This document shows, piece after piece, positions 7,986 through 39,829 of a stretch of 64,000 nucleotides of DNA. Source of the stretch: Methylophilus sp. 13 (GTDB lineage Bacteria > Pseudomonadota > Gammaproteobacteria > Burkholderiales > Methylophilaceae); the NCBI RefSeq assembly GCF_015354335.1, contig NZ_JADKYR010000003.1, positions 620,001-684,000 of the forward strand. The letters are read 5' to 3'. Under the pieces are notes generated by a model. It was not told the DNA's origin, did no database searches, and worked only from the letters and a program-made list of their open reading frames with translations. Within the stretch, counting starts at the first letter, position 1. Each line of letters begins with the position of its first letter. Position numbers and translations under genes: made by a program.

Positions 7986-10900
7986 TTACTGGATCAATTC
8001 ACGCCAGCTTTGCTTGGTGCCATAGCTACCATTGCTTTTTTGCTTGAAAATCACCGTGGCCTTGCTGGATCCCGACAGACCGAATATCTGGTCATCCAGG
8101 CTTAATTGCTGCGGGGTAGGGTCATTACTGCCAGTCACCACAACATGTGGCACGCCATTCCCGTCATAGACAATATTAAAACCAACGGCGGGTGTGGTCA
8201 TACGCTCAGAAATGGCACCACCAGGCAACAAAGAGCCGCCTTTTTTATAGTTAAAGAAGTTAAACCAGCCATAGCCGGCACCACTACAAGCCTCGCTACT
8301 TGGTACAAGTGTTGGCATCATCAGGGCGCCATTGAGTAACAATGGATCCAGATTGACACGTTCCCCTACAGGAAAATCCAGCACCCAGCCATAGCCAGAA
8401 TCAAAATTCACCGTGCCAGTGGAGGACACCGTACGATCCCCGCTTAACACTTGCGTCGTTAACTGACTACGGCCAATTGGCGTGGTCTGCCCGCTATCCT
8501 TGAACACATAGACTGAGTTCTGAGGCGTATTGGTCAAATCGGCAGGCTCCAGAAACTTGCCGGTACCCACCATGACCACCATATTCTTATCGACCTTGCC
8601 CAACTCTGGCTGGGTAGTCACTTTTTGTGCAGTACCGCCACCCGCAGTCAAGCTGGCAATTTTATTGACGGTATTGGTATTGATATTAAAACGCCAGATA
8701 TTGCCATTTAAATCGCCACCATACACATTTAATACCGTGTTGTTCTCAAACATTTGCTCAGCGTAGCCGGAAATTTTTGCCAAGCCGCTAGGGTTGGCAG
8801 CATCCCCCTCGCCAGTCGTCAATGTTTTTAACAGGCTGCCTGTTCTTGCATCGAGGACATATAAATAGCCACGGCCATCGCCGACCGGATTGTTTGCAAC
8901 AAAGGTGCCATCGTTGAGTTTGCGAGCATTGGTGCCGTTGTTGTAACCAGAAGTCAAAAGCACCACCCAGCGCCCATCCAGCATTTTAGTCACCATCGGG
9001 TTACCAAAGCTGTAGCCTAGCGTATTGTTTATGCCATCTGGCTGAGCATAAAACTCCCAAAGCACTTGTGGGTTTTCCGGTGTGGTCACATCCAGCGCAA
9101 AATAGCCACGCCCGCCCCCGTTTAGCCCGGAAACCAAAATCGTACGCCACTCCGCATTGTCCCCGGTGCAAGCTGAGATACAGATATCCGTGACCACCGG
9201 GCTGCCATTGACATAATTTGTATGGTAATTGGCACCATATTCCTTATCTGCCAGATTGGCCAGATTCGGAATGACTGGGGATGGGATAAAAGCCCATAGC
9301 TCTGTGCCGTCATTGGCATTGAACGCATGTAGCATGCCATCGTTAGCCCCGACATAGACGGCGGCTGTGCGTGTTTTAGCCCAAGTTTTGTAAGCCTTAT
9401 AGCCGGGATCGAGATAATCAACGTTCGAAGCCCTGAAATAACTGGGGCGAGATTGTGAGATATCGCCCAGTGTTGCCTGCCGCTCTCTGAATAAGCGGTT
9501 GGCAGGCGCTGTATTCATACTGTTGTCTTCATAGGTCTTATTCCCAATCAGGTAATCAACCAGCTTGTCGGCTTTTTGAGTATCTGTCATTTTCGGATCG
9601 GTGGCAGGCAAGGCTTTCATCTGGCTTAAAGCGTTATAACCCTCTTCCAGTTTAGTTCTATACGCTGCCGGTAAATTACCAGGTTTAAAGTCAGCACGTG
9701 CATTGTTATTGTTAAAGTAAATTTTACGTTGCCCAATTTGCGTTTTGAGTTTGCCATCGCAGCTACGGGCAATGGGCACATAGCATGCTGTTGCGTCACC
9801 AAAATTCAGCACTGATCCCAGAGAACCGTTAGCGTTGCTACAAGTTGAATCGGTGGAGTTGCTGGTTTTGCAATACAAGTTACTGTCTGGTCCGGTATAG
9901 GCTGTGGCTGGAGAGGTACAGGCCTCAGCCGCCACATTTTCCACACACCAAACTGCGGTTTCTGAGGTTTGCAAGGAATTGGTATTGACCGTCCGCGCTT
10001 CCAGGTTACCCGTCCATTTTACTGACTGATAACTGGCCACATACTGGAAGTTATCGCCATTGGTCGGCGCCAGGCTACTGGCCGCAGCCGCGGCACTCGC
10101 ACCCTGGATGGATTTAATCTCTGACAAGCCCTTGGCCAAGGACTCGCGCAACAGTTTGGGGTTGCTGGCACTATAGTAGGTGCCGCCGGCATTCACAGCC
10201 GCATGCCATAAATCATCAATGCGGGTGCCGTTTTCCGCCAGGGTGGGATCAGGCCAGTTTTTGCGCATGGGCGTCGCGCTTAAGTCTTTAAAGTCGCCCA
10301 TGGTCTGCGTTTTATAATCATCGGTATAAAGCAGGGTCCCTGCAATGCCCAGGCCCAAGGTCAAGGTGACCATGTTTTGCTTGGGGTAATCCGTCGCCGT
10401 GCCACAAACGGATGAACCCAAAGATCCCGTGCAATTGGAGAGCGTGCTGTCACGGATATCCGTGTCATAAAAATACTTGGCCGTATCCGCCAAGGTATTG
10501 GATTTGTTACTGCTATCAAACTGTGGCGCAGGCGTACTGCCGCCATCCTGATTACCTATCGCAGTTGAACCATTAATGCGCGTAGGATTGCCGTTATCGT
10601 TCCAATAGCCGTCGGTGGTCAACAAGGTAAAGTTGGATTGGCAGGCATACTGTATCGGATCATCGGTTCCTAACGTCTTTTTGCCAGCATAGTGTTTGCC
10701 CACATTGGCAAGGGCAGTGCGCAACGGCGTCCCGCCACTAGGATTGACTGCAAACAATTTATCGTACCAGGATTGCTTTTGCGAGCTGTCAAAAGGAGCC
10801 AGCGGCAGATAATTAGAAGATGAATTATTAATCGTCACAAATCCCACCCTATACCTGGAATCCAGGGCTTTAAACGCTTGGCTGGCGGCAGTTTTCATCG

Positions 10901-12089
10901 AGAGCATGCGTGTACGATAATAGGTGACCCAATTAGCATAATTGGTAAACTCTTCGCTATAGGTGCAAGTAGCCGCAGCACAATCGGTTCGCTCGGCGCC
11001 TTTGCTGGTTGCCCCCGGCGCGCTATAACTGGTTTGGGCAGTCGTAATTTCCTGATATATCAGGCTGCCAGGAATATCCGTGTTATTCGTGGATAATTGT
11101 GTGGCCGTATAGCTGCCTCCCGACCCGGAAAAAGTCACTTGTATCGGACTAGCCGGGTTGAGGGCATCCCCGGCAAAGGTACTAAAATCAAAACTACTGC
11201 CATTGTTGCTGATGACAACATTGCCTGCCAATTTGCAAGCGCCTGTCATGGAGGAGTTACAGAGATTATTTTGTACGCGGCTAGAGACTGTCGAGGCGTT
11301 GGAACTCGAGGTGGTCGCGGCAGACAGCAACTCAATATTATTGATTTTGACGCTGGTCACTCTCACCGAACCACTGATACTAAAACTCAGCCGATACCGC
11401 GCGCTTGGTTCCCTCAAGTAAACATAGGTATTGCTATCATTCACTGTAGAGACATTATTGCGGATGCCCTGGCAACGGTCTTGCGTCCCACCACTGGAAT
11501 CGAGCGTTCTTTTTTTAGAGGCAGCATCCGAGTTACACCAGCGCAAGGTGGCCGGATAATTATAGGCAACGCCATTCACCGTGGTTTTAGTTTTTGAAAC
11601 TACACAACTGGTCAATGCAGGCGTGGTACAAAACTCACCCGGCACATAAGCGTAGTAATAGGCTGATGAGCCTCGCGTAATATTGCCATACACTGTGGTG
11701 ACGTTTTCAGAAAAACCACTGAACGAGGTTTTATTGGCAAGGCTCGTCCCCAAGTAATTGAGCGGTGTACTGTAGGTCACTTCAGGGTTATAAAACTGTG
11801 TATTGTAGGCCGAGTTACTAAATAACCAGTCGGCGGCATCATAGGTATACCAGGACCAGCCGCTGGAATAGGAACGGCCATCAGGATCATCCGCGGCCCA
11901 GTCAGGGGTATAGTTGAAGCCCATACTGCCGGAGTTATCCAGCACAAACATCAGATTGGGTTTTACATCCGAGCTCCCGGAAGTTTGTAGCGGCATGGTG
12001 GCCAGGTCGAGAAACTCCGCCATGACCAAACCAGGCAATGCCAGTATCAGGAAAACAATTGTATGAAGGCAACGTGTTGGTTTCATCAT
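7986..12089 (-). CDS. pilY1: PilY1-type type IV pilus tip adhesin / assembly protein
   Basis: A 1367-residue exported protein with a signal peptide (about residues 1-24, ending LVMA). A von Willebrand A-like domain begins near residue 46 with the MIDAS motif DNSGSMG at residue 51. The C-terminal PilY1 beta-propeller starts near residue 910 (AAVYVGANDGMLHAFNANDG) and includes a repeated DGxxxALD-type blade (GRGYFALDVTTPENP). PilY1 sits at the pilus tip, promotes assembly against PilT-driven retraction, and acts in adhesion and surface sensing. It is the last and largest gene of the minor-pilin operon, 9 bp after pilX. Confidence 0.95.
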   Translation of the reverse strand: MMKPTRCLHTIVFLILALPGLVMAEFLDLATMPLQTSGSSDVKPNLMFVLDNSGSMGFNYTPDWAADDPDGRSYSSGWSWYTYDAADWLFSNSAYNTQFYNPEVTYSTPLNYLGTSLANKTSFSGFSENVTTVYGNITRGSSAYYYAYVPGEFCTTPALTSCVVSKTKTTVNGVAYNYPATLRWCNSDAASKKRTLDSSGGTQDRCQGIRNNVSTVNDSNTYVYLREPSARYRLSFSISGSVRVTSVKINNIELLSAATTSSSNASTVSSRVQNNLCNSSMTGACKLAGNVVISNNGSSFDFSTFAGDALNPASPIQVTFSGSGGSYTATQLSTNNTDIPGSLIYQEITTAQTSYSAPGATSKGAERTDCAAATCTYSEEFTNYANWVTYYRTRMLSMKTAASQAFKALDSRYRVGFVTINNSSSNYLPLAPFDSSQKQSWYDKLFAVNPSGGTPLRTALANVGKHYAGKKTLGTDDPIQYACQSNFTLLTTDGYWNDNGNPTRINGSTAIGNQDGGSTPAPQFDSSNKSNTLADTAKYFYDTDIRDSTLSNCTGSLGSSVCGTATDYPKQNMVTLTLGLGIAGTLLYTDDYKTQTMGDFKDLSATPMRKNWPDPTLAENGTRIDDLWHAAVNAGGTYYSASNPKLLRESLAKGLSEIKSIQGASAAAAASSLAPTNGDNFQYVASYQSVKWTGNLEARTVNTNSLQTSETAVWCVENVAAEACTSPATAYTGPDSNLYCKTSNSTDSTCSNANGSLGSVLNFGDATACYVPIARSCDGKLKTQIGQRKIYFNNNNARADFKPGNLPAAYRTKLEEGYNALSQMKALPATDPKMTDTQKADKLVDYLIGNKTYEDNSMNTAPANRLFRERQATLGDISQSRPSYFRASNVDYLDPGYKAYKTWAKTRTAAVYVGANDGMLHAFNANDGTELWAFIPSPVIPNLANLADKEYGANYHTNYVNGSPVVTDICISACTGDNAEWRTILVSGLNGGGRGYFALDVTTPENPQVLWEFYAQPDGINNTLGYSFGNPMVTKMLDGRWVVLLTSGYNNGTNARKLNDGTFVANNPVGDGRGYLYVLDARTGSLLKTLTTGEGDAANPSGLAKISGYAEQMFENNTVLNVYGGDLNGNIWRFNINTNTVNKIASLTAGGGTAQKVTTQPELGKVDKNMVVMVGTGKFLEPADLTNTPQNSVYVFKDSGQTTPIGRSQLTTQVLSGDRTVSSTGTVNFDSGYGWVLDFPVGERVNLDPLLLNGALMMPTLVPSSEACSGAGYGWFNFFNYKKGGSLLPGGAISERMTTPAVGFNIVYDGNGVPHVVVTGSNDPTPQQLSLDDQIFGLSGSSKATVIFKQKSNGSYGTKQSWRELIQ

Positions 12090-27213: not shown

Positions 27214-30200
27214 CTAAGCATGCTTCTTAAGCCAGCTGCTTACGCCCCTCAACCATCCCAGTAAATCATCCACGTAGGTGTACAGCACCGGGATCACCAC
27301 CAGACTCAGCACGGTTGAAGTAATTAATCCGCCAATCACCGTAATCGCCATTGGCGCGCGGAAGCTAGGATCCGCACTCCAGCCCAGTGCAATCGGCAGC
27401 ATACCGGCAGCCATGGCAATGGTGGTCATGACAATCGGCCGCGCACGTTTATGGCACCCATCGATAATCGCATCAAACCGGCTTAACTGGCGCTCTTTTC
27501 TGGCCATGATGGTGTACTCCACCAGCAAGATCGAGTTTTTGGTCACCACACCCATCAACATCAACAACCCAATCACACTCGGCATGGAGAAGCTGTTGTG
27601 GGTGACCAGCAGGGCAAAGAAGGCCCCACCCAGTGACAAGGGCAGCGCCCCCAAGATGGTCACTGGTTGCAGAAAGTCGCCAAACAGCAAGACCAGCACC
27701 ACATAGATGCACATCACGCCGATGACCATGGCGCCGCCAAAGCTGGCAAACAACTCGTTCATGCGTTTGGCGTCACCTGACTCCAGCTGCTTCACGCTGG
27801 GCGGCAGCGATTGCATGGCGGGCAGCTGTTGTACTTCACGCATGACCTCACCAATCTGACGCTTGTTGAGTTCGATATCGAAGGTCACATTGCGCATGCG
27901 GTCCATACGGTCAATTTGCTGCGGGCCACTGCCCATGCGCACGGTGGCAACAGTTTCTAAACTGACACTGCCGTTGCGTGCGGGTACCCGCAACTGGGCA
28001 ATTTCTTGCAGGCTGGTGCGCACACTGGAACCCAATCGCACCCGGATAGGCACCTGGCGCTGAGGCAAATTGAGCTTGGGCATGGTGTTGGAGAAGTCGC
28101 CAGAGGTGGCAATGCGAATCACCTGTGCAATCGACTCTACCGTCACCCCCAGCTCGGCGGCCTTGTCGATATCGGGGATGATCTGCACCTCTGGCCGTTG
28201 CAGGCTGGCACTGGAAGTGATGTTGCCGACACCGCTCAAGGTACGCAATTGTTGCTCCAGCTGTTGGCTGGCATTGCCCAGCGCAATGCCATCATCGCTG
28301 GCCAGTGTGATCTGCAGTTTTTCACCGGATTCCCCAATGCCGACGTTGACGCGTGCGCCCGGCAAGGCCTTGAGTCGCTCACGTAACTCGGCTTCAATTT
28401 CGGATTGCTTCTGATGCCGCTCACTACGATCCGTCAGACTAATCACCAGGCTGCCCTTGCGCACATCCGTACTATTCTGCGAAGCATTGGGCCCACCCCC
28501 ACCGGTGCTGGCCGTGCCCGCGGCACTAAACACTGCCTTCACTTCCGGGTGCTGCTTGACGATCTGCTCTGCCAGACTAACCACTTCGCGCGTCTGTTCC
28601 AGCGCGGTCCCCGGCTGCAACTCAATATTGACCTTGGTCTGGCTACTGTCAGAGGAAGGCACAAAGCCTTTAGGCAACAGTGGCATCAAACTCAATGAGC
28701 CGACAATGAACAATACAAATGCCAGCACCACGGTTTTGCGGTGGCGCAAACACCACTCCACACTGCGTAAGTAAGCGCGCATAAAGCCAGAGATTTGTTC
28801 TTCCTTGACTGGGTGCGGTTTTAACAAATAGGCTGACATCATGGGCGTCAACAAGCGGGCGACCACCAGCGAGCCCATGATCGCAATGGCCGCCGTAATG
28901 CCAAACTGCTTGAAGAATTTACCCGGAATACCGCCCATAAATGCGGTGGGTAGAAAAATCGCCACCAGCGTAAATGTGGTGGCAATCACCGCAAAGCCGA
29001 TTTCATCAGCGGCCTCCATGGCGGCCTGATAAGGGGATTTGCCCATGCGCAGGTGGCGGACAATGTTTTCGATTTCCACAATGGCATCATCGACCAGAAT
29101 CCCCACCACCAGCGCCATGGCAAGCAAAGTAAGAATATTGAGCGAGAAGCCGAAATATTGCATAAATGCAAAGGTCGGGATCATGGATAAAGGCAGAGCG
29201 ACGGCGGCAATAATGGTGGCGCGCCAGTCGCGCAAAAACCACCACACCACCAGAATAGCGAGCAATGCCCCCTCGTACAGCAATTGCATGGAGCCGTGAT
29301 AGTTATCTTCTACCGGCTTGACCATGTTAAAGGCCTCCACAATCTTCACTTGTGGATGCAAGACCCTGAATTTTTCCAGCGCGGCACGCACATCTTTGGC
29401 CACCGTCACCTCACTGGTGCCTTTGCTACGCGTAATTTCAAACCGGATGACTGGCTTGCCATCATAGCTGGCATAGGTGGTGCGCTCGGCATAGGTATCA
29501 ATCACCTCCGCCACTTGCGACAACTTGATGTGGCGACCATCGCCGATGGGAATATCCAGATTGCGGACTTCATCCGCACTATGCAAGGCGCCCAGGGTGC
29601 GTACCGACTGAATATTGTCGCCAATATCCCCTCGCCCGCCCGAGGCATCCTGCTGTACGCGTTTGAGCTGTGCAGACACATCGCTGACATTGACACCCAA
29701 ACCCGCCATCAAGGTCGGATCAAGATTAACCTGCACTTCGCGGTCTACGCCACCGGTACGCGTAATCTTGCCCACGCCATTCACTGCCAGCATGGCCTTG
29801 CTCACTTCGTTGTCAACAAACCACGATAGCTCGCCTTCATCCATATTGTCAGCCGAGGCGACGAAAGTGAGGATCGCGCTGCCCGAAGTCGTCACTTTAG
29901 ACACGGTAGGCGTCAGTACCGCAGCGGGCAACTCCGAGCGCGCGCTATCAACCGCATTACGTACCAGATTCAGCGCCTCTTCACTGTTGGTATCTATGGT
30001 GAACTGCACACTGATGCTGACACTGCCATCGGTGATTTTGGTGGTCATGTGCTCGATCCCACCAATGGTCGCAATCTTGTCTTCAATCTTGCGGGCCACT
30101 TCGGTTTCCAGCTGTGGCGGGGCCGCACCTTCCAGCGTCGCACTGACCGAAATCACCGGCAGCTCAATATCCGGAAAGTTCTGTTTGCCTAATTGATTAA

Positions 30201-30285
30201 GTGATTTGAGACCAAGAAAGCTCAACACCACGAACAGCAGAATGGCGGGAACCGGATTGCGGATAGACCAGGCTGAAAAATTCAT
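27214..30285 (-). CDS. Multidrug efflux RND permease (HAE-1 / AcrB-like)
   Basis: A 1023-residue inner-membrane drug/proton antiporter of the HAE-1 class. The N-terminus NPVPAILLFVVLSFLGLKSL, the TM4 acidic pair in LVVGILVDDAIVEIENI and the internal two-fold repeat of TM and porter domains are visible. It is the last gene of the operon tetR - outer-membrane factor - adaptor - pump, with a 4-base overlap to the adaptor. Substrate is unknown. Confidence 0.92.
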   Translation of the reverse strand: MNFSAWSIRNPVPAILLFVVLSFLGLKSLNQLGKQNFPDIELPVISVSATLEGAAPPQLETEVARKIEDKIATIGGIEHMTTKITDGSVSISVQFTIDTNSEEALNLVRNAVDSARSELPAAVLTPTVSKVTTSGSAILTFVASADNMDEGELSWFVDNEVSKAMLAVNGVGKITRTGGVDREVQVNLDPTLMAGLGVNVSDVSAQLKRVQQDASGGRGDIGDNIQSVRTLGALHSADEVRNLDIPIGDGRHIKLSQVAEVIDTYAERTTYASYDGKPVIRFEITRSKGTSEVTVAKDVRAALEKFRVLHPQVKIVEAFNMVKPVEDNYHGSMQLLYEGALLAILVVWWFLRDWRATIIAAVALPLSMIPTFAFMQYFGFSLNILTLLAMALVVGILVDDAIVEIENIVRHLRMGKSPYQAAMEAADEIGFAVIATTFTLVAIFLPTAFMGGIPGKFFKQFGITAAIAIMGSLVVARLLTPMMSAYLLKPHPVKEEQISGFMRAYLRSVEWCLRHRKTVVLAFVLFIVGSLSLMPLLPKGFVPSSDSSQTKVNIELQPGTALEQTREVVSLAEQIVKQHPEVKAVFSAAGTASTGGGGPNASQNSTDVRKGSLVISLTDRSERHQKQSEIEAELRERLKALPGARVNVGIGESGEKLQITLASDDGIALGNASQQLEQQLRTLSGVGNITSSASLQRPEVQIIPDIDKAAELGVTVESIAQVIRIATSGDFSNTMPKLNLPQRQVPIRVRLGSSVRTSLQEIAQLRVPARNGSVSLETVATVRMGSGPQQIDRMDRMRNVTFDIELNKRQIGEVMREVQQLPAMQSLPPSVKQLESGDAKRMNELFASFGGAMVIGVMCIYVVLVLLFGDFLQPVTILGALPLSLGGAFFALLVTHNSFSMPSVIGLLMLMGVVTKNSILLVEYTIMARKERQLSRFDAIIDGCHKRARPIVMTTIAMAAGMLPIALGWSADPSFRAPMAITVIGGLITSTVLSLVVIPVLYTYVDDLLGWLRGVSSWLKKHA

Positions 30286-31475
30286 TTTGCAGCCTCAGGT
30301 TTGGTCACCGTCACGATTTTGACCCTATCCCCATCGTTGAGAAAAGCGCCACCACTGAGCACCAGCGAGGCCCCTGCCTCCACGCCACCAAGCAACTCTA
30401 TCAGCTGCTCGCGGGTACGGCCGGTTTGTACCTTGCGCTGTGCGACCTGGCTGATACCGTCAGACCCGGATGGCGCCAGTTCAAACACATAGGCAAAGCC
30501 ATCGCGGTAGGTGACGGCACTCAGTGGGACCGCCAACCCTTGCTGCTGGCCGATATCCACCTGTCCCTGCACATACATGCCAGGCTTGGCACTGCCTTTG
30601 GGGATATCCACATACACCAGCGCATTACGGGTATTGTTGTCGACGGTCGGCGAAATCAACCGCACGGTCCCGGCTACCTTCTTGCCGCCCGGCAAACTCA
30701 GGTTGACCGCTTGTCCGGCATGCAAAGCATTTTGCTGATCCGCATTCACCTCACCGCGCCACTCAATACGACTTTGCCGCACCAGTCTGAATAACTCCGC
30801 CCCGGCCGACACCACATTCCCCAAATTGGCAGAACGTGATGAAATGACCCCATCGTCAGGCGCCACCACTTTGGTCTGGCGCAAGCGGATTTTCTGGTTC
30901 TCCAGCTCCGCCTCGGACAAGGCGAGATTGGCCCGTGCCGTCTGCTCGGCAATCATGTATTCATTGATTTTTTGCGCCGATAGCGCGCCACTGTCCTTGA
31001 TTTCACGCGCACGGTCTGCATTACTCTTTGCTTCAGCCAGCGCGGCCTTGTCTTTTTCAACCGTGGCGAGCTGTTTTTGCAAATCCGCCTTGACGGTTTC
31101 ATCGGCCAAGACAACCAGCAACTGTCCCTTGCTCACTTGCGCGCCGACATCGGCCAGCACTTGCTGTATGCGCAATCCAGCTATTTCCGCACTGACCAGG
31201 GCCTCTTGCCAGGGATAGACGCTGCCATTTAGCATCAGAGTCGTCTGCCATTGCACCTTCACGGGCCGGGTGACCTCCACGCTCAAGGCGGCTTTGCCCT
31301 TGCCCGCTGACTGCGGCGCATGTTCTGTTTCAGTTTGATTGACGGCCGCGCGGTTAGCACGTTTTTCTGCCAGCTCGGCCTGATGACGCGGATGTTGCCA
31401 GAACCAGGCACTCACACCCACCAGCACGGCCGCAATGATTAAGAATTTGGTTTTTTTTGTCAGTCTGCTCGCCAT
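30282..31475 (-). CDS. Periplasmic adaptor of RND drug efflux system
   Basis: A 397-residue membrane-fusion protein with an N-terminal membrane anchor (FLIIAAVLVGVSAWFW). The lipoyl motif is split around a long alpha hairpin (VSAEIAGLRIQQVLADVGAQVSKGQ and VVAPDDGVISSRSANLGNVV). The C-terminal beta-barrel part ends with GGAFLNDGDRVKIV. It should bridge the pump and the NodT-like channel. It overlaps the pump start by 4 bases and follows the channel gene by 6 bp. Confidence 0.92.
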   Translation of the reverse strand: MASRLTKKTKFLIIAAVLVGVSAWFWQHPRHQAELAEKRANRAAVNQTETEHAPQSAGKGKAALSVEVTRPVKVQWQTTLMLNGSVYPWQEALVSAEIAGLRIQQVLADVGAQVSKGQLLVVLADETVKADLQKQLATVEKDKAALAEAKSNADRAREIKDSGALSAQKINEYMIAEQTARANLALSEAELENQKIRLRQTKVVAPDDGVISSRSANLGNVVSAGAELFRLVRQSRIEWRGEVNADQQNALHAGQAVNLSLPGGKKVAGTVRLISPTVDNNTRNALVYVDIPKGSAKPGMYVQGQVDIGQQQGLAVPLSAVTYRDGFAYVFELAPSGSDGISQVAQRKVQTGRTREQLIELLGGVEAGASLVLSGGAFLNDGDRVKIVTVTKPEAAK

Positions 31476-31481
31476 TTTTAT

Positions 31482-32948
31482 TTACCTTTTTTCCATGGGC
31501 TTGAGGATGATGGGTTTCACCGTCGCCTGTGTTTCCAGCCAGTCACCACCAAATGCCTTGTATAACGCAATCCACTGCAACACACGGTTTTTTTGCTGGG
31601 TGATAACGTTCAGCTCGGCATTAATTTTTTGCCTGCGGGCATCTTCGAGTGACAATAAATCCAGCCCGCCTGATTTCCAGTTGATCTCGGCGGCCTTGAA
31701 ATATTGCTGATATTGCTGGGCACTGGCCTGCTCGGAGGTGGCGCGGCGGGTAGCACTTTCCAGATTCACCAAAGCCTGCTCTACTTCTTTGACAGCATTA
31801 CGCACATCCTGCTGATAGGTTGCCAGCAAGCTATCGTAATTGGCACGCGCTTCTGCCAGATCCGCACGCAAAGTGCCGCCATCAAAAATCGGCAACTTGA
31901 GAGAAGGGCCATACGACCAGGAGTCGGTGCGTGTCACCGTGCCATTAAAGTTGGTGCGGCGATAGCCGATCGATCCGGTCAGGGTCAGGCTAGGGTACAT
32001 CTGGGCTTTGGAGACGCCGATATTGGCACTGGCTTCCGCCAAGTTGCGCTCATCAATGGCCAGGTCTGGGCGCCGGGTCAGTAAACTGGCCGGCAAGGCC
32101 TGCACGTCAAACATGGCAGGCTCTGGCAAGCTTTTGCCTTTCGCCAACCATTGACGCAACTCAGGCTCAGGCAAATTGGTCAACGCCACCAGCGCTTTTA
32201 CCAGTCCATCACATTCGGCTTGCTGCCCATCCAGCGTAGACTCACTGGCGCGTGTCGCTGCCTCTGCGAGTGCCAGGTCTGACGGAGCGGAGAAACCAGC
32301 CTTGGCAGAAATGCCTGTCAAACGCGCGGTCTCTTTACGAGAGTCATAGGCCTGTTGCAGGGCGTCTACCGATGCCTGGCAGGCACGGTAATTCACATAA
32401 TTATTTGCTACCTCGGCGGCCAGGCTCAAGCGTGCATCGTGCCAGGCAATTTTCTTGGACTCCAGTTGCGCTTTGGCTGCCTGCTTGGCGGCTTTCACCT
32501 TGCCAAACAAATCCACTTCCCAGCTGGCATCCAGTGAAATCGAATCAACTTCAATGGTACTGGCCGGAAACGCGCCACCACCACCGCCTTTACTCTTGGT
32601 GGCACTGCCGGTGCTGGTTAAATCAGGGATCCCTTGCGCACGGGCAGACAAGACATTGGCGCGCGACACACGGATATTGGCCAGCGCAATTTCAAGCGAG
32701 GGACTTTCTTTCTGTGCCTCAGTGAGCAGATGGTCAAGCACAGGATCGTTGAATTGCCCCCACCAATTGTTCAGCGACGCCAGATTGCCGCCATGCGGCA
32801 ACGGCGCTTGCCATTCTGTAGCTACCTTGGGTTTTGGGCGGATATATTCATCCATCACCGAGCAACTCGCCAGCGGCAAACACACGACAGCCAACCATAG
32901 CGGCAGGCGACGCAGGTTTACCGCAACCTTTAAGACAGGCTGCTTCAT
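31482..32948 (-). CDS. NodT-family outer-membrane efflux lipoprotein
   Basis: A 488-residue TolC-like channel with a lipoprotein signal; the lipobox is LASC with the lipidated Cys at residue 29. Two repeats of OEP helices follow (for example ASLNNWWGQFNDPVLDHLL near the start, typical of NodT proteins). The ATG at 32948 overlaps the tetR stop (ATGA), so the two genes are coupled. An upstream extension within tetR is rejected. Confidence 0.92.
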   Translation of the reverse strand: MKQPVLKVAVNLRRLPLWLAVVCLPLASCSVMDEYIRPKPKVATEWQAPLPHGGNLASLNNWWGQFNDPVLDHLLTEAQKESPSLEIALANIRVSRANVLSARAQGIPDLTSTGSATKSKGGGGGAFPASTIEVDSISLDASWEVDLFGKVKAAKQAAKAQLESKKIAWHDARLSLAAEVANNYVNYRACQASVDALQQAYDSRKETARLTGISAKAGFSAPSDLALAEAATRASESTLDGQQAECDGLVKALVALTNLPEPELRQWLAKGKSLPEPAMFDVQALPASLLTRRPDLAIDERNLAEASANIGVSKAQMYPSLTLTGSIGYRRTNFNGTVTRTDSWSYGPSLKLPIFDGGTLRADLAEARANYDSLLATYQQDVRNAVKEVEQALVNLESATRRATSEQASAQQYQQYFKAAEINWKSGGLDLLSLEDARRQKINAELNVITQQKNRVLQWIALYKAFGGDWLETQATVKPIILKPMEKR

Positions 32949-33622
32949 TTTTGTTCCATCCCGTGTAATCCTCTCAAGAATAACTGCACCACAAATGCAA
33001 TGTGTGCTTCTGCATCCCAATCTGCTTCTTGCACCCCGAATAATGCTTTATGGCGAGGGCCGGCGATCAGTAGCTCGCAATAAGACTCAGCCGCCCGCAT
33101 AAAATTCAGTTGTGGCAACTCGCCTTTATCCGCATACGTTTTAAAGATATTTGCCAACATTTGATAGATGCGCTCCGGCCCCACTTCTTTGACTGCCCTC
33201 GCCAACTCCGGTAAATGTGATACTTCTGAAATCGCAATTCTAAAAAAGGACACCATGCGCGGTTCAAGGACTTTTTTCAACATCAGTCGCCCGATATGCG
33301 TGAGCACCGTGGCCAGCGAGGGGTCGGCTAACTGCTCAAGATTGGTCATGGCACGCACATCCTGCTCCACCATGTGCTTGAGCGCCGCGATCAATAACGC
33401 ATCCTTGTTGCTGTAACGCTCATAGATGGTTCGCGTCGAGACGCCACAGGTTGCGGCAATCCGCGCAATACTGGTCCGTGCCACGCCCTCGGTCATAAAC
33501 AGTTCGAGGGCCTGCGCCAGAAATTGGGCGTGCCGCTCCTGTGTTGTCCCGGTTTTTGGCCGCCCCACCTTAGGTTTGGCAGCGGCTGTGCGTGTAGAAG
33601 GCATGTCGTCCTGCGTATCCAT
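32945..33622 (-). CDS. TetR/AcrR family transcriptional regulator
   Basis: A 225-residue repressor. After a basic, disordered N-terminus (AAAKPKVGRPKTG), the helix-turn-helix lies at about residues 30-75 (GVARTSIARIAATCGVSTRT). The C-terminal ligand domain resembles the AcrR C-terminal family. It heads the efflux operon and presumably represses it, being relieved by a transported compound. A 20-bp palindrome directly upstream of the start is the likely operator. Confidence 0.9.
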   Translation of the reverse strand: MDTQDDMPSTRTAAAKPKVGRPKTGTTQERHAQFLAQALELFMTEGVARTSIARIAATCGVSTRTIYERYSNKDALLIAALKHMVEQDVRAMTNLEQLADPSLATVLTHIGRLMLKKVLEPRMVSFFRIAISEVSHLPELARAVKEVGPERIYQMLANIFKTYADKGELPQLNFMRAAESYCELLIAGPRHKALFGVQEADWDAEAHIAFVVQLFLRGLHGMEQK

Positions 33623-33769: not shown

Positions 33770-34303
33770 ATGGCTCTCAAATCCACCATTTATAAAATCA
33801 ATCTCAATATTGCGGATATGGACAGGCATTACTATCAGACGCATATGCTGACCTTGGCCAAGCACCCCTCGGAAACAGAAGAGCGACTGATGGTCAGACT
33901 GCTGGCGTTTGTGCTCTATGCGGATGAAGCCTTGCAATTTGGCAAAGGCCTGAGTGACGACGATGAGCCGGATCTCTGGCAAAAAGACCTTACCGGGGCA
34001 ATAGAACGCTGGATAGGCGTCGGCCTGCCTGACGAGCGTGAGATTCGCAAAGCCTGCGGAAAAGCCAAGCAAGTGGTGCAAGTGCTTTATGGTGGCAGAA
34101 CTGCAGAGATGTGGTGGGAGCAACAACAAAAAGCCATGCTTAAACTGGATAATGTCACGGTGATTAACCTGCCGGAAACCCAGGCACTCACAGCCGCTGC
34201 CTCACGCAGCCTGAGCATGAGCGTCACCATACAAGATCAGCAATTATTAGTGAGTCATGACAACGGGAGTTTTGAGCTTTCTCCCGTCATCCTCAAGGCC
34301 TAG
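33770..34303 (+). CDS. yaeQ: YaeQ family protein
   Basis: A 177-residue protein matching the YaeQ family throughout: ALKSTIYKINLNIADMDRHYYQ at the start, ARHPSETEERLMVRLLAFVLYA-like context, and the WWEQQ segment. YaeQ folds like a PD-(D/E)XK nuclease and has no agreed function. It stands alone and divergent from tetR, with a strong terminator after it. Confidence 0.93.
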   Translation: MALKSTIYKINLNIADMDRHYYQTHMLTLAKHPSETEERLMVRLLAFVLYADEALQFGKGLSDDDEPDLWQKDLTGAIERWIGVGLPDEREIRKACGKAKQVVQVLYGGRTAEMWWEQQQKAMLKLDNVTVINLPETQALTAAASRSLSMSVTIQDQQLLVSHDNGSFELSPVILKA

Positions 34304-34344
34304 CATCCTTCTTCCGTCTTGGAAGCTGATTGAGCACAGGCTCA

Positions 34345-34384
34345 AAAACAAAACCCTTCATGGATCACATGAAGGGTTTTTGTT
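34345..34384. terminator. Bidirectional terminator after yaeQ
   Basis: AAAACCCTTCATG / CATGAAGGGTTTT with a 5-base loop is flanked by A and T tracts. It separates yaeQ from the convergent KRPY-motif gene. Confidence 0.9.
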
Positions 34385-34423
34385 GCACCGGCACAGCCGG
34401 CGTTCAACAGCACTCAATTAAAT

Positions 34424-34711
34424 TCAGTCTGCCGGTGAGCCCATATAAGGGCGCTTGCCAATAAAGTTCAGGCGCATTTGCTGGTGCTTGTCCAGGCCTT
34501 TATCCGGGTTATCTGTGATCAAGCCTGTGCCTTCCCATTTATCTTCAGGGCTTTGCTGTTTTGCCTGTGGGGCTTTACTGTAAGGCCGCTTGCCGAGGAA
34601 GTGGTTCTGATGCAGATTGTGTACACCACTCTCAGCGTCAGAGGTATCGCCTGCTTGAACATTCGCCATGAAGCCAAATGTTACCAGAACTGCTAATAAC
34701 AATTTACTCAT
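34424..34711 (-). CDS. Small secreted protein with twin GKRPY motifs (paralogue A)
   Basis: A 95-residue exported protein of unknown family. The signal peptide covers about residues 1-20 (ending VQA). The mature part carries HFLGKRPYSK near its start and NFIGKRPYMG near its end, separated by a spacer with a conserved-looking Trp (DKWEGTGLITDNP). The ribosome site AAGGAG lies 6 bases before the ATG. The adjacent upstream gene encodes a paralogue with the same layout. No cysteines are present in the mature part. Function is unknown; export to the periplasm or outside is predicted. Confidence 0.72.
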   Translation of the reverse strand: MSKLLLAVLVTFGFMANVQAGDTSDAESGVHNLHQNHFLGKRPYSKAPQAKQQSPEDKWEGTGLITDNPDKGLDKHQQMRLNFIGKRPYMGSPAD

Positions 34712-34754
34712 TTTACGCTCCTTAAATCGCTCATTCTTTAATAGTTTTTACCGT

Positions 34755-34798
34755 TAGGGTGAGTAACGGTCAGGATTATGGTGGCATAGTTACCTGAC
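34755..34798 (-). repeat. Tandem stem-loops between the two KRPY genes
   Basis: In minus-strand order, GTCAGG...CCTGAC encloses TATG/CATA, and it is followed by ACCGTTA/TAACGGT. TACCTGAC also recurs as a direct repeat with 11-bp spacing at 34791 and 34802. These could be attenuator hairpins or regulator sites. Confidence 0.4.
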
Positions 34799-34808
34799 AA
34801 CTACCTGA

Positions 34809-35075
34809 CTAAAACGCACGTTTGGACAATTGATGCATTTTCATCACTTGCTGCGCTTGTGCGGATGCAGGATTTACAACCAAAGTCGCACCTACCCAGG
34901 CTTGATCAGCCGCTGCGCTAGCCACCACGGCAGGTGTAGCATAAGGCCGTTTGCTTAAAAAATGCTGTGTATGCGCGGTTTGTTGAATATTTTTCTCACC
35001 TTCAAATGCCACGACCGTTGAGGCCACGAACAAACTTGAAACCATAAAACCCACAGAAATAAATTTACGCATCAT
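34809..35075 (-). CDS. Small secreted protein with twin KRPY/KRAF motifs (paralogue B)
   Basis: An 88-residue exported protein. I place the start at ATG 35075, directly after AAGGAGACAC; the frame continues upstream to about 35219 but without a comparable ribosome site. The signal peptide ends VVA. The mature part has QHFLSKRPYAT near the start and HQLSKRAF at the very C-terminus, with a Trp-Gly-Leu-Asn-Pro spacer (AWVGATLVVNP) that aligns with paralogue A. It is probably co-transcribed with A, 97 bp upstream of it. The function is unknown. Confidence 0.7.
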   Translation of the reverse strand: MMRKFISVGFMVSSLFVASTVVAFEGEKNIQQTAHTQHFLSKRPYATPAVVASAAADQAWVGATLVVNPASAQAQQVMKMHQLSKRAF

Positions 35076-35307
35076 GTGTCTCCTTATACGGTTAATGTGA
35101 TTCATGTCTTCTCGTTTACATGTTTGCTCAATCACGATGGTTTGCATTTTGCCAGCCAGCAGACAAGAAAGAATCTCTCGATATACGTAGTTTGGTATAT
35201 ACCTAACGGCATACATCATTATTTAGATGGCTATTGAAAGTAAGTGCCTAGCCAACCAATGCGCTGAGATTGCTCGCCAGGTGAATGCCAGCAAACCAGA
35301 GGTATGC

Positions 35308-37748: not shown

Positions 37749-39638
<1,890 letters not shown>

Positions 39639-39668
39639 TTAAAAGAAAAGACGTAAGGATGCGAAGAC

Positions 39669-39764
39669 TTGCATTCCCTACGGCGGTATGACCCGCATCA
39701 GGTTCGAAGGGTAACTCTCACTGCAAAAACCTCACAAAATGAAGTATTTACAGACCCCTAGCAA
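39669..39764 (-). promoter_or_regulatory. TPP riboswitch (THI element) of thiC
   Basis: In minus-strand reading the element shows P1 arms TTGC/GCAA, TAGGGGTC, the junction GTGAGA, ACCCTTCGAACCTGATGCGG, then ACCGCCGTAGGGAA. It lies 40 bp upstream of the thiC start. The usual CTGAGA appears as GTGAGA, a tolerated variation. Confidence 0.95.
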
Positions 39765-39829
39765 CGGACGAATTGTGCGGGAAAAAGCCTGATAACGCAA
39801 GTAAAACAAAGTTTTGCGTCTGCCTGCGC

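Follow-up and report, generated by a model that had tools for sequence, protein, structure and literature searches.

Small exported KRPY proteins of Methylophilaceae and their association with a CHASE3 kinase/LuxR module linked by position to carbonic anhydrases

What are the two adjacent genes for small exported proteins found in a 64,000-nucleotide stretch of the genome of Methylophilus sp. 13 (NZ_JADKYR010000003.1, positions 620,001 to 684,000; hereafter the window), and which cellular process could they serve? The first-pass annotation described them as paralogues that each carry twin KRPY or KRAF motifs. Both open reading frames were confirmed and belong to one profile family, referred to here as KRPY, with KRPY-A as the first gene and KRPY-B as the second (Table 1).

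The window pair and the KRPY family

KRPY-A and KRPY-B form a short operon with 97 bases between the genes and a strong terminator-like hairpin at its end. The 136-aa version of KRPY-A given by the ORF finder was rejected, as comparison with homologues places its start too early; an alternative start, the ATG at 35075, would yield 88 aa. Each protein begins with an export signal that includes an A-x-A-like site, and the two are only about 20% identical to each other. Open homologues reach 68% identity, which supports coding, and dN (0.08-0.40) was well below dS (0.47 to saturated) in all 11 pairwise comparisons made, as would be expected of real genes under purifying selection.

Table 1. Positions of the features in the window
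Feature	Position	Strand	Description
KRPY-A	34809..35072	-	87 aa, exported, first operon gene; flush end at second motif
KRPY-A first motif	34941..34964	-	HFLSKRPY, residues 37-44
KRPY-A second motif	34812..34835	-	HQLSKRAF, last eight residues
KRPY-B	34424..34711	-	95 aa, exported, second operon gene; C-terminal tail beyond second motif
KRPY-B first motif	34580..34603	-	HFLGKRPY, residues 37-44
KRPY-B second motif	34445..34468	-	NFIGKRPY, residues 82-89
Conserved operator upstream of KRPY-A	35175..35213	-	TATGCCGTTAGGTATATACC, three bases, then CTACGTATATCGAGAG; 24/28 core positions; about 130 bases before start codon
Intrinsic-terminator-like hairpin 3' of KRPY-B	34343..34385	-	AAAACCCTTCATG stem and T run
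YaeQ	33770..34303	+	flank of the window pair
TetR regulator	32945..33622	-	flank of the window pair
RND efflux operon	27214..33020	-	flank of the window pair
TPP riboswitch	39657..39769	-	immediately upstream of thiC
thiC	37749..39629	-	
PilY1-type pilus protein	7986..12089	-	1367 aa

The spacer pattern originally proposed, W-x-G-x-x-L followed by NP, is found in both window proteins (WEGTGLITDNP in KRPY-B and WVGATLVVNP in KRPY-A), but its NP is not conserved across the family in an alignment of 38 rows, and the spacers between the motifs vary. Invariant in this alignment are R42 and R87 (KRPY-B numbering), and the residues preceding KR differ outside the window pair (e.g., QNLSKRPY). The mature part of the 38 members, delimited by a crude cut-site rule, has no cysteine and a mean net charge of about +1. 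In every one of the 38, the BLOSUM62 score of the two motifs against each other exceeds that of either motif against any non-overlapping mature 8-mer, in a comparison whose positions were picked on the conserved arginines and which favours the pair in that respect; most members show a wide margin, a few a narrow one (e.g., 14 versus 10). The twin-motif pair is beyond chance. An origin by internal duplication, as first suggested, fits the presence of single-motif KRPY-like proteins at the same place in two genomes of one genus, g36 (L179:5929-6135, L180:5253-5459 and L098:6903-7145), which could be either an ancestral or a reduced form. The tree of 62 KRPY proteins, which is poorly resolved, needs at least three changes between the A and B layouts (flush end versus tail), and repeated duplication or concerted change of the layout is possible.

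Homologues with twin motifs are present in related genomes: the profile search detected the family in 42 of 187 Methylophilaceae genomes, distributed over 7 of 24 genera. Three profile matches were obtained in a sample of 300 genomes of the order, two of them in Methylophilaceae and the third false, a weak match in G335 that was rejected as a 246-aa protein without the twin motif. There can be up to 6-7 paralogues per genome, and Methylophilus sp. 13 itself has six members, namely the window pair, another pair at C1:442k and single genes at C1:428k and C1:432k. The copy at C1:428k (L035:10400-10693), a kinase-linked KRPY-B, is interrupted by an internal stop codon, while the counterpart in G098, the second genome of this species, is open. 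The pair was initially thought to belong to no known family, and this has stood up to searches of the curated libraries, since Pfam and NCBIfam at E 1 yielded no family for the window pair and nothing in the PDB was better than E 0.9. Membership in a known family was rejected on the basis of Pfam, NCBIfam, PHROGs and PDB, where the exceptions were weak matches to phrog_24782 (a PHROG of unknown function; 2 of 38 members, best E 0.00035) and to DUF6791 (2 of 38 members, best E 0.008); the LTXXQ model was absent among the matches of the 38 members at E 0.1. An origin in mobile elements or phages was rejected as well, as KRPY-B had no match in plasmid and phage records. Nothing on the family was found in the open-access literature searched, and the available part of PMC3728764 contains no mention of carbonic anhydrase, LuxR, histidine kinase or secreted.

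Structure prediction with AlphaFold gave no fold for KRPY (mean pLDDT 56, from a shallow alignment of 17 rows). Short helices lie directly before each motif in this low-confidence model, with which Foldseek returned no matches. KRPY proteins are small and exported, probably to the periplasm, and, as far as can be judged from these models, mostly unfolded and without enzyme activity. The neighbours of the window pair are YaeQ and an RND efflux operon, with no carbon genes, and YaeQ and TetR neighbours also adjoin KRPY genes in four other genomes. Elsewhere in the window there are a TPP riboswitch upstream of thiC and a large PilY1-type pilus protein (Table 1).

The regulatory module and its operator

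According to the gene maps, the usual KRPY locus is arranged back-to-back with a LuxR-type regulator that is accompanied by a CHASE3 hybrid kinase and a lone receiver. Domain scans, which covered the L042 module, the kinases of L177 and L178 and the LuxR of L176 (other loci were compared by blastp only), identified CHASE3, HisKA, HATPase_c and REC in the kinase, which together with the lone REC and the LuxR HTH make up a two-component module. The match of the LuxR N-terminus to GAF is weak (20 bits, with a cut-off of 22.4), and the AlphaFold model of LuxR is uninformative (pLDDT 35). The curated models closest to the kinase core, among them TorS, LuxQ and BarA, all match far below cut-off. CfcA of Pseudomonas putida, as described in the available part of PMC6849547, is also a hybrid kinase with a CHASE3 sensor, whereas the kinase described here has a lone REC and a GAF-LuxR protein as partners, and other neighbours.

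Counting one locus per genome, 33 LuxR loci were mapped (nine further genomes with LuxR lie outside this count), and KRPY is divergent from LuxR in 31 of them. The slot is without KRPY in G011, where a KRPY pair is found elsewhere and a nearly intact operator precedes LuxR, and in G080, where KRPY is on another contig. Locus L047 (locus read only) has KRPY, LuxR and receiver with no kinase gene between the latter two, and some other loci stop inside the module where the contig ends. Across the 187 Methylophilaceae genomes, KRPY is present in 42 and a LuxR orthologue (112 bits or more) in 42, with 41 genomes common to both; in the LuxR-only genome (G128) the protein of the slot is 68 aa long and has one motif only, KFLGSRPY, at its C-terminus, and the KRPY-only genome (G018) is 80% complete.

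Downstream of KRPY at these home loci there are, mostly, genes for a SulP permease and a beta-type carbonic anhydrase. SulP is next to KRPY in 26 of the 31 LuxR-linked loci, four being without SulP and one ending with the contig. Methylophilus methylotrophus DSM 46235 has the genes for KRPY, LuxR, kinase, receiver, SulP and carbonic anhydrase together at a single locus (L104). Close SulP matches were found in 49 of the 187 genomes, 41 with KRPY (G128 counted) and eight without it, and two KRPY genomes (G101 and G183) have no close SulP match. When compared to the DauA, SulP and BicA models, the permease gives matches only far below the cut-offs. About 17 of 23 loci have, by eye, a terminator-like hairpin between KRPY and SulP, which implies that SulP and the carbonic anhydrase need not be co-transcribed with KRPY, and they are probably transcribed apart from it. 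This arrangement beside most LuxR-linked KRPY loci recalls systems in which a SulP/BicA-type transporter goes with a carbonic anhydrase, although KRPY differs from them as a separate family in what is probably a separate transcription unit.

The first KRPY gene of an operon is preceded, about 104-205 bases before its start codon, by a conserved operator, TATGCCGTTTAGTATATACC-GAA-CTACCTATATCGGTAG. Its core was derived from the same 54 upstream regions (36 + 18) on which it was evaluated, and it was called present at 20-28 of 28 core positions, shuffles reaching 19 at most. By this measure the operator is present in 43 of the 54 regions, including all 31 LuxR-linked KRPY operons and 12 of 17 unlinked ones, among them the window operon; scanning the window gave one match at up to 3 mismatches versus 0.07 expected. 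It is absent upstream of all six KRPY-like genes located beyond the receiver gene, and in five unlinked relatives (L095-L098 and L182). The profile score does not separate operons with the operator from those without: three relatives that lack it (L095-L097) score 45-50 bits, and L179 and L180, which have it, score 21-25. A scan of 13 genomes of the genus agrees with these results: all 18 operator matches at 0-1 mismatch lie at KRPY operons or LuxR; at 2 mismatches there are ten, one of them at a KRPY locus, and a reversed control pattern gave nine matches at up to 2 mismatches. At LuxR-linked loci the operator overlaps the likely start of luxR, suggesting that LuxR could regulate its own expression. 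We infer that the LuxR protein binds the KRPY operator, and the window pair is a dispersed copy that would be controlled in trans. The 'ligand-binding or signalling' role initially entertained can be sharpened to this extent, that most KRPY copies look like part of a dedicated LuxR/kinase regulon which is linked by position to carbonic anhydrases.

The six KRPY-like genes past the receiver are diverged (L042:9470-9799, L043:12722-13051, L049:1244-1525, L035:14089-14346, L039:9465-9815 and L050:8767-9027) and have a partly conserved upstream sequence of their own; several of them have a regulator and kinase pair of the OmpR type next to them. The relative lacking the operator at L182:4137-4463 (G018) is an exported, histidine-rich protein of 108 aa with the motifs KHLSKRPY and KHTSKRPH. 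The L090 module (G123) may be in decay, since its first KRPY gene is truncated and the match to its LuxR gene is split in two.

Outgroup modules and carbonic anhydrases

In the sample of 300 genomes from the order, the LuxR profile matched three other genomes. Within one family it matched 6 of 126, two of which were already among those three, and within that of G029 it matched 1 of 4; among 369 genomes drawn from the class, it matched at 1e-30 the own genome only. The outgroup set consists of seven loci (L176, L177, L178 and L192-L195) from two families, one of which contributes six; L177 and L195 are nearly identical. Every locus of the set has its LuxR, CHASE3-type kinase and receiver genes side by side, with luxR oriented divergently to a gene whose product is exported. 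Two of three scanned slot proteins were above the cut-off for CaMKII_AD (PF08332) and SgcJ/EcaC (TIGR02246), and the third came nearest to NF047901, a model of metal-independent carbonic anhydrase, with 269.8 bits where the cut-off is 350; blastp showed 62-98% identity to the L177 protein for the remaining four. HHSS is found in all seven. Bacterial iota-carbonic anhydrases are annotated as SgcJ/EcaC proteins and have a common (H)HHSS motif, according to the available part of PMC8425729.

All seven outgroup loci also have the element TATATGCC-N3-CG[GA]C at -113 to -139, which aligns with the first half of the KRPY operator; the second half was not seen in them. Taken singly against 300 shuffles, the element is unusual in four of the seven (3 or fewer), borderline in L194 (15) and unremarkable in L177 (39) and L195 (158). 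Run on three of the seven loci, the KRPY profile gave no KRPY match. Conversely, a search at 1e-6 with the PF08332 model alone found this domain in none of the 42 KRPY genomes and in 2 of the 187 Methylophilaceae genomes, neither with KRPY. The possibility that KRPY is a diverged or shrunken iota-carbonic anhydrase was rejected, as hhalign gave a probability of 3% and aligned the two only on nine signal-peptide residues.

The iota-class enzymes (CaMKII_AD / SgcJ-EcaC; PMC8425729, available part) thus resemble KRPY in being exported and in occupying, in 7/7 outgroup loci, the same divergent slot next to a homologous LuxR-kinase-receiver set with a related promoter element. They are, however, NTF2-like enzymes with HHSS, and KRPY has neither the domain nor the motif. 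Going by these sequence comparisons, the position that a carbonic anhydrase occupies in related modules is taken in Methylophilaceae by a protein family unrelated to it. The link of a CHASE3 kinase/LuxR module with a carbonic anhydrase in Burkholderiales was not found in the literature searched. The parts of the module are of known kinds, and their combination and the KRPY family are new as far as the libraries and literature searched extend.

Possible roles of the KRPY proteins

We propose that a CHASE3 kinase/receiver/LuxR module linked to inorganic carbon has the KRPY proteins as its exported, mostly unfolded outputs, a proposal in which our confidence and our doubt are about equal. They would be the main visible output of the CHASE3 hybrid histidine kinase, the lone receiver and the GAF/LuxR-type DNA-binding protein, and the module would probably be part of the inorganic-carbon (CO2/bicarbonate) supply, as indicated by the gene neighbours and by the content of the syntenic slot. 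The input of the kinase could be tied to that supply, with a shortage of CO2 or bicarbonate turning on, via the receiver and LuxR, an exported product that would be a carbonic anhydrase in some lineages and KRPY in Methylophilaceae. The two KRPY motifs could act as short docking elements, giving a bivalent hold on an envelope partner; our guess at candidate partners includes SulP, the CHASE3 domain of the kinase and the partner KRPY protein. Bivalent docking seems the most likely mode because KRPY looks unfolded and has two copies of one short motif. More tentatively, and here we are rather doubtful, KRPY could represent a novel kind of periplasmic factor, unfolded and non-enzymatic, which replaced an exported carbonic anhydrase in a carbon-responsive circuit and aids bicarbonate capture or sensing via its repeated docking motifs.

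CpxP and Spy are small periplasmic proteins with a twin short motif, LTxxQ, and a helical fold, which are under a sensor-kinase system and feed back on it. KRPY proteins are likewise small, exported, endowed with a twin short motif and linked to a sensor kinase, but they have no Pfam match, their motif is KRPY and their model is mostly unfolded. Feedback similar to that of CpxP on CpxA would make KRPY an input of the module: secreted or periplasmic peptide ligands of CHASE3 could switch the kinase off in this manner, or switch it on like autoinducers, in a module that mainly regulates itself. This is attractive because it is the regulator set with which KRPY is most tightly associated, and because few further operator sites are seen. 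None of the 42 genomes that have the LuxR orthologue lacks KRPY (in single-motif form in one case), but a close SulP is sometimes missing, and the 18 strong operator matches leave few other targets visible; the operator is also kept in the twelve unlinked operons, and exported, unfolded-looking proteins with short repeated motifs would suit such a function. Nevertheless, we consider it unlikely, given that the slot of seven outgroup modules holds an enzyme gene, that L047 has KRPY, LuxR and receiver with no kinase gene between them, that variable spacers and 6-7 paralogues per genome would be unusual for a specific ligand, and that, on incidental inspection, no dedicated exporter or processing protease came to notice.

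Even less probable, in our opinion, is a general function of KRPY in envelope stress or at the cell surface, chaperone-like or polymer-binding, with the carbon neighbours as a historical accident. To our knowledge the ligands and signals of CHASE3 sensors are mostly unknown, and the distance of the kinase from its nearest models leaves its input open; moreover, the dispersed copy of the window is beside YaeQ and an RND efflux operon, not carbon genes. Yet SulP follows KRPY in 26 of 31 LuxR-linked loci and an iota-type carbonic anhydrase fills the slot in every outgroup locus, and with two separate associations with carbonic anhydrases an accident is hard to credit. The A/B pair could also be a two-peptide bacteriocin or another antimicrobial, to judge from the adjacency of two small genes for exported products, the kinase system linked to them and the occurrence of several paralogous pairs in a genome. 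We regard this as very improbable: the mature net charge averages about +1, there is no third (immunity) gene in the window operon before the terminator-like hairpin, KRPY-B is without plasmid or phage match, and KRPY presence tracks the regulator through 7 genera, whereas bacteriocins are patchy in distribution.

Our results offer a first handle on a protein family without a curated name in seven genera of Methylophilaceae, and point to a link, with a defined operator, between a CHASE3 kinase/LuxR module and carbonic anhydrase in several Burkholderiales. The KRPY-linked module also provides a candidate signal for a CHASE3 sensor. If the proposal of carbon-linked outputs is true, one and the same regulated slot would house an exported carbonic anhydrase or tiny unfolded proteins depending on the lineage, posing the new question of how non-enzymes could support the supply of bicarbonate.
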